From NCBI GenBank assembly GCA_011620695.1, contig WOYT01000121.1, positions 1-44,861 on the forward strand: a DNA stretch of 44,861 nt, given 5' to 3'. The stretch is from Proteiniphilum sp. (GTDB lineage: Bacteria; Bacteroidota; Bacteroidia; Bacteroidales; Dysgonomonadaceae). A program made the translations under genes and the position numbers. A model generated the notes under the pieces. It ran no database searches and had not been told where the DNA came from. It worked only from the letters and a program-made list of their open reading frames with translations. Positions 13,543 to 44,805 of the stretch are shown here, piece after piece. Position 1 is the stretch's first letter. Each line of letters opens with the position of its first letter.

Positions 13543-14274
13543 GTGAAGAAAATTGCCCTGTTTCTCTATCAATGGATCATTTTCATGCCGTTGTTCTTGT
13601 TGATTACCCTCCTAACCGCCTTAACGGTAATGGTGATGGCTCCTCTTTTCGGTAGTCGTTTTTGGGGATACTATCCTCCTCACATCTGGTCCAGAATCAC
13701 CTGTTATCTGTCACTCTGCCGGGTGAAGAGCTCAGGACATGAGAAGCTTGATCCCAAACAGTCATATATATTTGTTGCCAACCATCAGGGTGCTTTCGAC
13801 ATTTTTCTGCTTTATGGCTTCCTGAATCAGAACATCAAATGGATTCAGAAACAGAGTCTGCGAAAGTTACCTTTTGTGGGTTTCGCCTCCGAGAAAGCAG
13901 GTCATGTGTTTGTTGACAACTCAACAGCTGCTGCCCGTGCAGCTACCATTGAAAGGGCAAAAGCCCAGATCACCGATGGGGTCTCCATGGTGATCTTCCC
14001 TGAGGGTGCACGCACCCTCACTGGCAAGATGGGTCGCTTCAAGCGCGGTGCCTATTACATAGCCCGTGATTTGCAGTTACCGCTGGTGCCCCTTACCATC
14101 AATGGATCATACGATGTGTTAAAGCGTCACAGCCGGCTGATCAGGCCGGGAAAGCTGGAGCTGGTGATTCATGATCCCATACCAACAACATCGCTGTCGG
14201 ACGAGGATCTGGCAGCTTTGATTGATCGCTCGAAAGAGATCATACATGCTTCTTTGTGGGAGAAATACCGGTAG
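13543..14274 (+). CDS. plsC: 1-acyl-sn-glycerol-3-phosphate acyltransferase
   Basis: NHQGAFD (HX4D) and FPEGARTLTG motifs; GTG start. Confidence 0.88.
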   Translation: MKKIALFLYQWIIFMPLFLLITLLTALTVMVMAPLFGSRFWGYYPPHIWSRITCYLSLCRVKSSGHEKLDPKQSYIFVANHQGAFDIFLLYGFLNQNIKWIQKQSLRKLPFVGFASEKAGHVFVDNSTAAARAATIERAKAQITDGVSMVIFPEGARTLTGKMGRFKRGAYYIARDLQLPLVPLTINGSYDVLKRHSRLIRPGKLELVIHDPIPTTSLSDEDLAALIDRSKEIIHASLWEKYR

Positions 14275-14285
14275 GGGGGGGTGAT

Positions 14286-14356
14286 AAAAAAGAAATGGTT
14301 GTCTCACGACAACCAATCTTCATTGTTAACCTTAAATCTAATACCATGAAAAACAC
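14286..14356 (-). ncRNA. Predicted intergenic small RNA (~70 nt)
   Basis: Minus-strand promoter TTTG-N20-TACATTTG (14392-14361), then GTGTTTTTCATGGTATTAGATTTAAGGTTAACAATGAAGATTGGTTGTCGTGAGACAACCATTTCTTTTTT. 8-bp perfect stem with GTGA (GNRA) loop and U-rich tail. Lies in a 252-bp gap between two convergent genes. Confidence 0.65.
14296..14315 (-). terminator. Intrinsic terminator of the predicted sRNA
   Basis: TGGTTGTC-GTGA-GACAACCA followed on minus by TTTCTTTTTT. Confidence 0.7.
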
Positions 14357-14360
14357 GTAG

Positions 14361-14392
14361 CAAATGTACAAGCATTGCGGCATATCTCCAAA
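14361..14392 (-). promoter_or_regulatory. Promoter of the predicted sRNA (TTTG-N20-TACATTTG)
   Basis: CAAATGTA 14361-14368 and CAAA 14389-14392 on plus strand. Confidence 0.65.
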
Positions 14393-14526
14393 GATTCAGT
14401 AAGAAAAAAAATTCTTTTTAAATATATTTAGTATTTTAACCTTTTCAATGGATCAAATGTCTCGTTCGTTTGCGTTTGTTTGCATATTTTGAGGAAGAAA
14501 TAATCACTGCTTTTGCCCTTTTAGTC

Positions 14527-15516
14527 TCAATCGTAGATCCTGTTGGCAAAAAAATTGAGTAAACCCCAGTTGAAGCGGTACCAGCGTCTGGTTGCCCGCT
14601 GTTTACCACCGAACTGCAGCAGGAAGCGCGAACGACCGCTTTTTTTGTGCAGGAAACTCACATCCATGAAATCGAAGTAGTGAAAACCCTCCTCTTCCGA
14701 TCGTTTCATCGCAGCATAGAGGGTGAAGATGGTGGGGTAGAGTAGCTTGTAACGTTTCGATTTGCCCCAGTAATAGAGGCAATAGACAACGCTGTTTCTC
14801 TTTTCAAAGCCAAGGATGGCTCCACCGATGATCTTTCCCTGGTAGCGGGTGAGCAGGATCTTTCCTCTTCCTTTTTTCACGTAGTGATGGAAGAAGTTTT
14901 CGAAATAGGCGTAGGGAGGGAAACGACGTCTGATCTTTTTCTGGTTAGTGTTCCTGATTAGTTTGTATATTTCAGGCAGATCATCTTCCGACAGCATCTC
15001 CTCCATGCGTACCCCTTTTCTTATGGCTTTGTTAACCTGGTTTTTACGGGAAGGTGAAAGTTGGTCCCAGATCTTTCTTTTTCGTTGCAATGAGTTGCAA
15101 ATGTTGATCCATTTCACGGAAAAAAAATGATTTTCGCGGAATCCCTTGTACCCGAAGATAGCATTGCCCAGGTTCTCATATCGTATGAGAAATACCTTGT
15201 GCTTCACCTCCTGTACCAGGTGGGTGATCAGTAAATCAAACAGTTCGATCTGGGGTAGGTTCTTCCCGAAGAAGGAGGGCGCTTGAGAGATGATGCACCG
15301 CCTGAAGAGCGAATGGTGTAGCAACCGGTTTTTGCGGACGATGATAGCGAAGAGTGCCGCAACAGGTCTCTCTTCGTCAAAAGCAACCAACATCAGCGGG
15401 CGGTAGGCGGGGACATGGCCGTACCAGTCGAAACAGGAAGGACTATGGAAGAATTTATTCTCTTCAAGCGGTGGCAATTCCTCTTTGTGATGGTATGTTT
15501 TTACGCTGAAAGCCAT
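14527..15516 (-). CDS. GNAT/FemAB-like acetyltransferase domain protein
   Basis: 329 aa; 'LSPSRKNQVNKAIRKGVRMEEM', 'GKIIGGAILGFEKRNSVVYCLYYWGKS', 'FHYFDFMDVS' resemble FemAB/GNAT_6-type acyltransferases. Confidence 0.65.
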   Translation of the reverse strand: MAFSVKTYHHKEELPPLEENKFFHSPSCFDWYGHVPAYRPLMLVAFDEERPVAALFAIIVRKNRLLHHSLFRRCIISQAPSFFGKNLPQIELFDLLITHLVQEVKHKVFLIRYENLGNAIFGYKGFRENHFFSVKWINICNSLQRKRKIWDQLSPSRKNQVNKAIRKGVRMEEMLSEDDLPEIYKLIRNTNQKKIRRRFPPYAYFENFFHHYVKKGRGKILLTRYQGKIIGGAILGFEKRNSVVYCLYYWGKSKRYKLLYPTIFTLYAAMKRSEEEGFHYFDFMDVSFLHKKSGRSRFLLQFGGKQRATRRWYRFNWGLLNFFANRIYD

Positions 15517-41235: not shown

Positions 41236-44200
41236 TTAGAATGTAAGCTGAACGCCAAATGATACTGTTCTGTACATCGGGTCTATTCGTCCCCAGGTTG
41301 CATTACCCAGGCTCACTCCTTCTTCTTTGTCATTTACTTCAGGATCGACGGGGGCATTGCTTTTATTGATCAGTTCCATCAGGTTATTGGCACTGAAATA
41401 GACTCTGGCTCTTTGCATATAGATCCTGGATGCCATATTGGTGGGGATTGTGTAGCCCAGTGTCAGGTTCTTGAAGCGCAGATAGGCCATGTCAACCAAA
41501 TATTTTGTCTGAGGGTAAAAGTTATGATTACCTAATTCCAGGACAGAAATCGTACCTCTTCCGGCGTTACCCGGATATAACCTTGGAAAATCGGCTTTGG
41601 AGTCCGGGTTCTCTTCTGTCCAGTAATTTGTCTGGTTTTCATAAATTGCATCGGCGCCACGCATCATCGGCATTACAAATGCGCTCTGTGTCCATACCGA
41701 GCGTTTACCCACACCCTGGAAAAACATATCAATGTCGAATCCTCTCCATTCGGCACCCAGACGAAAACTGTACTGATAACGCGGAGTGATATTACCGATC
41801 ACTTTCAGATCACCATGGTCATCGGCCGTACCTTTACCGCCATCAATAACGCCACTTCCGTCCAGATCCTTGAATTTGATATCACCGGGGCCAAAAACAA
41901 ATGTTCCTTGTTGTAAACCGACCTGGGATGGAATCCCGGGTTTATAGGTCCCGTCAGCATTAAAATCTCTCTCTGTAAAATAACGATCTGTTTCGAATCC
42001 CCAGATATCGCCATACCGTTTACCACTATAATTCTGGTTCAACAATTTGGCCTCATTGTCCCATTCAGTAATATCTGTGATAAAGTCTCCCACATTGGCA
42101 TTCGCATATAGCAGTAGATCGTTGAAACGGTGGCGCCCGTCGATCGTTAGTTCCCATCCCCGTGTGCGAAGAGATCCTGCATTGATATAAGGTGCAGTGG
42201 CTCCAAGTACCTGCGGCATGGTTTGGCCTGGTGCCAGCATGTCTTTCGTTGTACGTTGATACCAATCGAACGTAAAATTCAGTTCGTTGTTAAAGATTCC
42301 CAGGTCAGCACCAAAATCGAGCGTTTGTATGCGCTCCCATTTCAATGTGGAAGAGACTAATTTCGGCAGGTCGTAAGCCACCACTTTGGTTCCGTCATCT
42401 GCCAGCCAATAGGTATTGTTTTCAGTGCGTTTTGCCAGTGTGGAAAGGTACATGTTATTACCCACCGCCTGATTGCCAATTTCTCCGTAAGAGGCTCTCA
42501 ATTTGAGATTATTGATCGATTCTTTTAATGGATCGAAGAATGTCTCTTCGCTGATCCTGTATCCGGCAGATGCCGAATTAAAAAATGCCCATCGATCGTT
42601 GGCGGGAAACCGGGAGGATCCGTCGTATCGACCGTTTAACTCCAGCAACCACTTCCCTTCATAGTCGTAGTTCAAGCGGCCAAAGTATCCGGCAGTTGCC
42701 CAATGTGAGTGTGCTCCATCGACGTATTGACTGCCTGTAGCCAGATCAAATTCCGGAAGATTATAGTCCAGCAGGTCATCTCTTTGGGAATAATGGTTGA
42801 AATATGTATTTCCTTCCGCATTTCCCCCTAACATAAGATTGAAATGATGGTGATCGGGCAAAGAAAATTCATAATTTCCATAGATATTCACTGCAAAAGT
42901 CTTATCCTGATCGGACTGTTGTTCCAGCAAGGAACTACTGGTATATAACGTTGTATTTTCGATGGCCCCTCCCCAGGAGTTCCATCCGCCTACCGGTATA
43001 TAAGCAGCTTTATAGGTATAGTTATTAATATTATACGTATAGTCGGCATTCAGGGTCAATCCCTTTGCAAGGGTAGCCTTTGCAAAAGTTCCCATACGAA
43101 TAAAACTATTGTTGTCAGTCCAGTCACCCGCTTGTTTGCGGTAAGCAATATCGTTCCGGAAATCGGTACCCTGATACGTTCCATAAGGGCCAAAGAAGCT
43201 TCCCCAGCGCCACATGTACTGATAGGTTGTTCTGCGTGTAGCTGGCCCAATAAAATCTTTATTGCTGTAATTGAACCGGGCACCAACCTGTAACCAATCT
43301 GTCACGTCGGTTGTTACGTTCAACATGGCTGTCCATTTGTCCAATTTCTCGGGAAAATAGGTCATGACCCCTTCCTCGTGGTTATATCCCACCGACATGT
43401 AATAGGAAGTTTTTCCGCTTGTTCCTTGCAGGGAGAGGTTATGGCTCTGTGACGGTTTCCAGTTTCGGAACATGATATTCACCACATCCCAGTCTGCAAA
43501 GTACATACCCACACCGTTGTTGTCCAGGATGAAATCACCGAGGGGTTTAGAACTATCTGTCAATGCATCCTTGTGACCCAATACCATCTCCCGGTAATTG
43601 GCTTTCTTGCCATTATGTTCGTCTCTCCATTTTTCTGCATAAGGAAGCATTTCATCCAGGTACATGCCAAACAACTCATTGGCTAATCCGGCGCGTTGGT
43701 TTGCGGCAATCAACGCTTTCAATTGTGTTGGAACATCGGGATAGTCAGGTAAGATTGTGGGGGTATCCCAGCCAAAATTATTGGTATAGTTTACAGATAC
43801 CCTATCTACCTGCCGTGCCGATTTGGTTGTGATCAGTATCACTCCAAAAGCAGCTCTGGTACCGTATATTGAGGTTGATGCAGCGTCCTTCAGGACAGAT
43901 ATATTTTCTATATCCTGCGTATTCAGAAGGGAAAGATCGTCCATGGGCACGCCATCAACAACAATCAGCGGTTTACTGGTTGCATCATTGCTTAAAGTTC
44001 CCAGGCCACGAATGGTCACAGAGGGCTGTGCTCCCAGTCTGCCACTGCTGCTGATAACGGATAAGCCCGGGACTGCACCCTGTAGCGCTTTCGAGATATC
44101 AGAATAGGGACGTGCCTCCAAGGTCTTGCTGACATCCACGGTGGAAACCGCTCCTGTTAAATTGGCTTTCGTTTGAATACCATACCCCACTACCACTAAC

Positions 44201-44805
44201 TCTTCCAGAGACTGTGTATCTTCCATCAGTGTGATGTTGAAATTGGTTCTTCCTGCGGTGTTGATTGTCTGACTCAGGTAGCCAATATAGGAAACCTGAA
44301 TAGAGGCATCATTGGCCACGCGGAAAGTAAACCGGCCATCCACGTCGGTGATGGTTCCGTTGGTGGTACCCACCTCCACGATATTGGCGCCGATGATGGC
44401 TTCTCCTCTTTCATCGAATACTCTTCCGGTGATTGTTTTATCGGTCTGCTGCACCACTTCATCCGTGGTTCTGATTTCTGTTTTGATTTCTTCGGACAAC
44501 GGTTTACGGGAGATCGTGATTTGACGGTTGACAATCGAGTAGGTCAGATCCGTCTTCTTCAGGAGCAAATCCAATATCTCCGTAATGGATTTGTTGGTGA
44601 ATTTGTAATCAACCTTAGCAGATAATGCCGCTGCCGTATTATCCATTACCAAAAACAGGTAATCACTGTTTTTTTCAATCTCTTGCAATGCCTCCCTCAG
44701 TGTGATGTTTTTTAATTCGGCGCTTATCGATTTTGTTTGGGAATAGGTGTTCTCTGCCGCTATTGAAAAAACACAGAGTAAAGTTATTAAAAAATATATT
44801 TTCAT
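41236..44805 (-). CDS. SusC/RagA family TonB-dependent receptor with N-terminal STN domain
   Basis: STN 'NITLREALQEIEKNSDYLFLVMDNTAA...ITISRK', carboxypeptidase-like 'ITGRVFDERGEAIIGANIVEVGTTNGTITDVDGRF', plug 'ALQGAVPGLSVISSSGRLGAQPSVTIRG'. Confidence 0.96.
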   Translation of the reverse strand: MKIYFLITLLCVFSIAAENTYSQTKSISAELKNITLREALQEIEKNSDYLFLVMDNTAAALSAKVDYKFTNKSITEILDLLLKKTDLTYSIVNRQITISRKPLSEEIKTEIRTTDEVVQQTDKTITGRVFDERGEAIIGANIVEVGTTNGTITDVDGRFTFRVANDASIQVSYIGYLSQTINTAGRTNFNITLMEDTQSLEELVVVGYGIQTKANLTGAVSTVDVSKTLEARPYSDISKALQGAVPGLSVISSSGRLGAQPSVTIRGLGTLSNDATSKPLIVVDGVPMDDLSLLNTQDIENISVLKDAASTSIYGTRAAFGVILITTKSARQVDRVSVNYTNNFGWDTPTILPDYPDVPTQLKALIAANQRAGLANELFGMYLDEMLPYAEKWRDEHNGKKANYREMVLGHKDALTDSSKPLGDFILDNNGVGMYFADWDVVNIMFRNWKPSQSHNLSLQGTSGKTSYYMSVGYNHEEGVMTYFPEKLDKWTAMLNVTTDVTDWLQVGARFNYSNKDFIGPATRRTTYQYMWRWGSFFGPYGTYQGTDFRNDIAYRKQAGDWTDNNSFIRMGTFAKATLAKGLTLNADYTYNINNYTYKAAYIPVGGWNSWGGAIENTTLYTSSSLLEQQSDQDKTFAVNIYGNYEFSLPDHHHFNLMLGGNAEGNTYFNHYSQRDDLLDYNLPEFDLATGSQYVDGAHSHWATAGYFGRLNYDYEGKWLLELNGRYDGSSRFPANDRWAFFNSASAGYRISEETFFDPLKESINNLKLRASYGEIGNQAVGNNMYLSTLAKRTENNTYWLADDGTKVVAYDLPKLVSSTLKWERIQTLDFGADLGIFNNELNFTFDWYQRTTKDMLAPGQTMPQVLGATAPYINAGSLRTRGWELTIDGRHRFNDLLLYANANVGDFITDITEWDNEAKLLNQNYSGKRYGDIWGFETDRYFTERDFNADGTYKPGIPSQVGLQQGTFVFGPGDIKFKDLDGSGVIDGGKGTADDHGDLKVIGNITPRYQYSFRLGAEWRGFDIDMFFQGVGKRSVWTQSAFVMPMMRGADAIYENQTNYWTEENPDSKADFPRLYPGNAGRGTISVLELGNHNFYPQTKYLVDMAYLRFKNLTLGYTIPTNMASRIYMQRARVYFSANNLMELINKSNAPVDPEVNDKEEGVSLGNATWGRIDPMYRTVSFGVQLTF

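Follow-up and report, generated by a model that had tools for sequence, protein, structure and literature searches.

A FopS-family small RNA gene between two convergent genes of Proteiniphilum and a candidate operator of its paralogs

The DNA analysed here (a stretch of 44.9 kb, hereafter the window) comes from a Proteiniphilum MAG (Dysgonomonadaceae) that is 78% complete, and it contains two convergent genes whose ends are separated by exactly 252 bp (14275–14526); the question raised by this locus is what the gap encodes. The neighbours, which are given for context only, are a PlsC-like acyltransferase gene (13543–14274, plus strand; PF01553, E 2.7e-26), whose stop ends at 14274, and a FemAB/GNAT-like gene (14527–15516, minus strand; PF13480, E 1.2e-10, and PF02388, E 4.5e-8), whose stop ends at 14527. 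The window PlsC is 96% identical to the PlsC of Proteiniphilum sp. SM3-B12.2. An initial annotation, made from the sequence alone, had assigned the same length to the gap and had placed in it a stand-alone small RNA gene of about 70 nt, transcribed from the minus strand.

A FopS gene in the gap

The Rfam search that the initial annotation had proposed assigned the minus-strand segment 14356–14285 to RF04319 (FopS), with 80.1 bits (E 2.6e-10 with the whole window searched; gathering cut-off, 56 bits) and a match covering model positions 1–71 out of 71. The ends predicted from the model delimit an RNA of 72 nt, in agreement with the expected length. Upstream of it lies the promoter that had been recognised as typical of Bacteroidetes, i.e., a sigma-ABfr promoter of the form TTTG-N20-TACATTTG (14392–14361, minus strand), with the −33 element TTTG at 14389–14392 (TTTGG in the orthologs) and the −7 element TACATTTG at 14361–14368; TTTG-N20-TAnnTTTG has this single match in the whole window, while shuffles expect 0.09. 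At the other end, the terminator scan retrieved the 8-bp stem with a GTGA loop already described (14296–14315), followed by the U-tract TTTCTTTTTT (14286–14295); the gap harbors two terminator-like sites (one hairpin read on both strands) versus 0.2 expected. Between promoter and hairpin, the 31-nt 5' region GTGTTTTTCATGGTATTAGATTTAAGGTTAA (14326–14356) embeds the seed named R1' in PMC11697453 (RNA positions 1–21, 14356–14336), which is identical to the RF04319 consensus at every position. In the centroid fold the first 36 nt are unpaired (minimum free energy −16.2 kcal/mol, z −2.1), as anticipated for a single-stranded, seed-bearing body.

The FopS family has already been named and its mechanism described (2025, Ruttiger et al., PMC11697453); the window copy is an additional member. 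The RNA has the same seed, length (~65–70 nt) and layout, an unpaired 5' end followed by a terminator hairpin, as FopS of Bacteroides thetaiotaomicron (RF04319; PMC11697453), which is likewise multicopy, has a sigma-ABfr promoter and occurs together with an RRM-1 protein in the genome. According to these data, we hold with high confidence that the gap encodes a trans-acting small RNA of the FopS family, which sigma-ABfr RNA polymerase would transcribe, and which is predicted to pair through its seed and to be counteracted by an RRM-1 protein.

The RNA might instead be GibS, the GlcNAc-induced small RNA with two seeds (RF04182; PMC7366714), with which FopS has the R1 seed in common and to which a weak match of 41.4 bits was obtained. 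The cut-off of that family, however, is 115 bits, its model spans 142 positions, about twice the 72 nt found here, and the promoter is the sigma-ABfr type typical of FopS rather than PM2, according to PMC11697453. Both score and length fall short of RF04182, so that membership in GibS is refuted and its probability practically negligible.

Conservation, copies and taxonomic range of FopS

Sufficient sequence downstream was available for 26 plsC loci of the Proteiniphilum/Petrimonas/Fermentimonas type, and in 24 of them the FopS RNA occupies the same position and strand; at the corresponding place of the Dysgonomonas plsC loci no FopS RNA was found. These 24 loci and the window constitute a set of 25 orthologous loci. 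Compared pairwise without gaps, they are on average 98% identical over the RNA, 53% over the preceding 120 nt and 31% over the 30 nt that follow it, so that selection acts on the RNA itself. The 5' region is invariant in all 25, the boundaries of the conserved block coincide with the RNA ends expected from promoter and terminator, and upstream of the RNA only TTTGG and TAnnTTTG are clearly kept, within diverged surroundings. Over 33 sequences from many families, the 5' region is nearly invariant and the hairpin stem covaries, with 99.1% of the stem cells paired and two-sided changes at four out of seven pairs, a signal that none of 500 shuffles reached and that was far lower in slid controls. 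The limits of the conserved block, together with this covariation across the families of Bacteroidales, imply that both the RNA and its hairpin have been selected.

The same comparison bears on whether the segment encodes a small peptide starting from the ATG at RNA positions 10–12, whose frame in the window copy runs without a stop before the hairpin end. Among families, however, indels of 1–4 nt between seed and hairpin break this frame, the hairpin substitutions are compensatory pairs, one paralog of the host genome (copy C, see below) lacks the ATG, and in B. thetaiotaomicron sORFs in the FopS copies were excluded by the authors (PMC11697453). Hence, a coding function is extremely unlikely, and the reading as a FopS RNA is retained.

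A further possibility, raised in the initial annotation itself, is that the segment forms nothing but the end of the FemAB-like mRNA (3' UTR and terminator), from which a small RNA might be processed. Downstream of the FemAB stop, the FopS terminator is the first one on the minus strand, so that FemAB read-through transcripts could end there, and one B. thetaiotaomicron copy, FopS-14, is described in PMC11697453 as derived from a 3' UTR. Nevertheless, the promoter immediately upstream of the RNA is kept in the 25 loci while the neighbouring sequence is not, the host genome carries this RNA at two further loci, and promoter and RNA persist at three loci (L047, L073 and L048) where FemAB is missing nearby or has moved. 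Of these, L073 is the corresponding locus of the cultured P. acetatigenes DSM 18083. Because of this persistence the RNA is not just a FemAB 3' UTR, an interpretation that we regard as very unlikely; FopS has a conserved promoter and terminator of its own, recurs at unrelated loci and is a stand-alone gene, as had been proposed.

The incomplete genome to which the window belongs harbors three FopS loci, i.e., copy A (the window), copy B (contigs C3 and C157) and copy C (the start of contig C52). Counting C3 and C157 as two copies was rejected; since the contig ends (L112 and L114) share an exact overlap of 55 nt, they represent one FopS locus split by the assembler. Near-identical FopS paralogs break assemblies, and copy counts can be inflated as a result. 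Most members of the genus have three FopS loci, typically two strong matches and a weak one. The window genome thus has three copies versus 14 in B. thetaiotaomicron. The third FopS paralog of the genus, to which copy C (L113:1–71, on C52) as well as L118, L121 and L124 belong, differs in its 5' end (GTGGTTTTTTCATAATAG) and has a hairpin of 13 bp or longer with a GAGA loop; it scores 44–54 bits, below the Rfam cut-off, and may represent a separate subtype.

The hairpin GGTTGTC-GTGA-GACAACC (window 14296–14315) is almost fixed in the genus, in both strong paralogs, a difference from FopS of B. thetaiotaomicron. The 98% identity of the RNA also covers parts beyond the seed, and target pairing alone does not explain it. 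Since a terminator stem would be expected to be free to vary, its near fixation suggests either a further role, such as protein binding, or gene conversion between the copies.

The phylogenetic distribution of FopS was surveyed at increasing depth. The RNA is present in 100 out of 101 Dysgonomonadaceae genomes, among them each of the 62 good ones, and in every one of the 15 genera, as well as in 30 out of 148 genomes of an even Bacteroidales sample, under about 22 family labels. In a sample of the whole phylum, 3 out of 248 genomes were above the cut-off, all of them Bacteroidales, and no match above the cut-off was found in this sample outside that order. The impression of the initial annotation that GGTATTAGATTTAAGGTTAAC recurs in Bacteroidales was therefore correct, as revealed by the genus, Dysgonomonadaceae and order surveys; conservation extends well beyond close strains, across the order, and both the synteny-independent copies and the covariation that it had suggested looking for were found. 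As far as it is presented in PMC11697453, the conservation of FopS was established within Bacteroidaceae, by BLAST with a word size of 28; the range observed here, about 22 Bacteroidales families, is thus wider than the one given there. A recently described system of post-transcriptional control is hereby extended from gut Bacteroidaceae to a whole further family, the Dysgonomonadaceae, in which all well-assembled genomes tested have it, and to about 22 families of the order, and its fixation in an environmental relative makes the family much wider than the gut group of its first description.

Named matches include records of Parabacteroides distasonis, Prevotella nigrescens, Phocaeicola and Bacteroides in a plasmid collection. 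A match was also found in BX-TP2, an induced phage of Bacteroides xylanisolvens (PQ571285.1, L310), in which an unannotated FopS-like RNA (974–1019) with the promoter TTTGG...TATCTTTG lies near a DNA methyltransferase gene.

Predicted mode of action and targets

In B. thetaiotaomicron, the R1' seed of FopS RNAs pairs with the start region of mRNAs for SusC sugar importers and translation stops, and the RRM-1 protein RbpB relieves this repression (PMC11697453). By analogy, target repression and an RbpB-like effect would be expected for the window copy. Sigma-ABfr RNA polymerase would transcribe about 72 nt from the minus strand and stop at the terminator hairpin, and the 31 unpaired nucleotides at the 5' end would act as the seed. 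The complement of this seed, ...TTAACCTTAAATCTAATACCATGAAAAACAC (...CTAATACCATGAAAAAC), reads as a start-codon region, and for this reason the seed should be able to pair at translation-initiation regions. Such pairing, across the initiation regions of mRNAs for secreted and outer-membrane proteins and above all for SusC-type transporters, would block the entry of the ribosome; an RRM-1 protein, RbpB in the case of B. thetaiotaomicron, would bind FopS and counteract the repression.

The genome of the window harbors an RRM_1 protein, known by its domain match (E 1.8e-16); a single gene was found, and it is cut by a contig end. The search of the same genome for complements of the seed within three mismatches retrieved only the FopS genes and no SusC start. 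In 36 genomes of the genus, near-complements of the seed fall mostly on the ATG starts of genes for proteins with a signal peptide, many of them lipoproteins, as judged from the N-terminal sequences, a pattern that is suggestive only, because the reversed-pattern control ignores the commonness of ATGAAAAA. In a crude test on the window genome, the seed duplex was modestly stronger at SusC starts than at other genes (median −13.6 versus −11.0 kcal/mol, p = 0.011), with the best SusC start at −17.9 and one background gene at −21.2 kcal/mol. The SusC pairing, the identity of the seed and the RRM_1 gene support, without proving it, the same mode of action as in B. thetaiotaomicron. The window itself contains a gene for a SusC/RagA-type TonB-dependent transporter (41239–44439, minus strand), whose start pairs with the seed at an unremarkable −12.3 kcal/mol.

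The Enterobacteria possess small RNAs that shut off the synthesis of outer-membrane proteins, namely the sigma-E-dependent MicA, RybB and MicL, several of which are under one envelope-stress control. FopS resembles them in its predicted action; this is an analogy only, with no sequence relation, and on the FopS side there is an RRM protein instead of Hfq and no sigma-E. Since the window copy belongs to a Dysgonomonadaceae MAG and not to a gut Bacteroides, neither bile salts nor host glycans suggest themselves readily as its signals.

A palindrome in the promoters of FopS paralogs

The promoters of the paralogs are of two kinds, plain in copy A and with a palindrome in copy B (C3:19184–19214, L112), which probably means that the paralogs are controlled differently. 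The palindrome, TATGTT-N4-AACATA, is present in 40 out of 90 distinct FopS upstream regions, where it replaces the −33 TTTG at a near-fixed distance from the −7 box; shuffles gave a mean of 0.07 sites and a maximum of two, and the next best of 1024 half-sites reaches five. We consider it a candidate operator of a regulator. The window copy lacks it, and, since its promoter is of the plain TTTG type, we infer that it would be the less regulated one, beside the palindrome-bearing copy on C3.

Genome-wide, 91 out of 101 Dysgonomonadaceae genomes have one to four palindrome sites, versus four matches in total for the reversed control. The order sample yielded 33 sites, 21 of them directly in front of a FopS gene; FopS is present in 21 of the 24 genomes that have a site (hand count from two tables). 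The other 12 sites at this level equal the 12 of the reversed-pattern control; for this reason, no regulon beyond FopS is claimed for the order. A broader scenario may be depicted, in which two classes of FopS promoters exist across Bacteroidales (plain TTTG and palindrome operator), the regulator also controls a small PG1828-like lipoprotein and a 48-aa protein in Proteiniphilum, and FopS thereby belongs to a regulon for envelope stress that resembles the sigma-E/RybB system; we put it forward tentatively, with doubt slightly prevailing.

The text of PMC11697453 postulates a regulator for the induction of FopS under bile stress without mentioning a palindrome, and it assigns to FopS a sigma-ABfr promoter, not PM2; the latter is called near-palindromic, with a −10/−30 layout, in PMC7366714. 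As a bait sequence or in a reporter, the palindrome offers a concrete handle on the bile-stress regulator postulated by the FopS authors, and the candidate operator, together with the extended range, is worth following.

Palindrome-promoters also lie before other genes, and two such sites recur in Proteiniphilum. The first precedes a PG1828-like lipoprotein gene (75–80 aa; L272, about 1472–1503; C31:4971–5002, plus strand), with orthologous sites in Proteiniphilum and another genus of Dysgonomonadaceae (L274, L276, L278, L281 and L283); the lipoprotein scores 35.6 bits against the PG1828 model, under its cut-off of 50. The second precedes the gene for the 48-aa protein (L271; C67:18991–19023, minus strand; orthologs L273, L275, L277, L280 and L287), for which no Pfam or NCBIfam match was retrieved; between palindrome and gene lies a highly conserved leader, ATGGCAAGCGAGTTATTTGAAATCA...ACGGTTGCCGA...AATCATAAC, without a match in Rfam. 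Finally, the window harbors a DUF2582 winged-helix gene (PF10771; 16877–17122, minus strand), upstream of which the palindrome was searched for and not found, and a homolog of this gene in another family (G140, L305) is located behind a palindrome-promoter.
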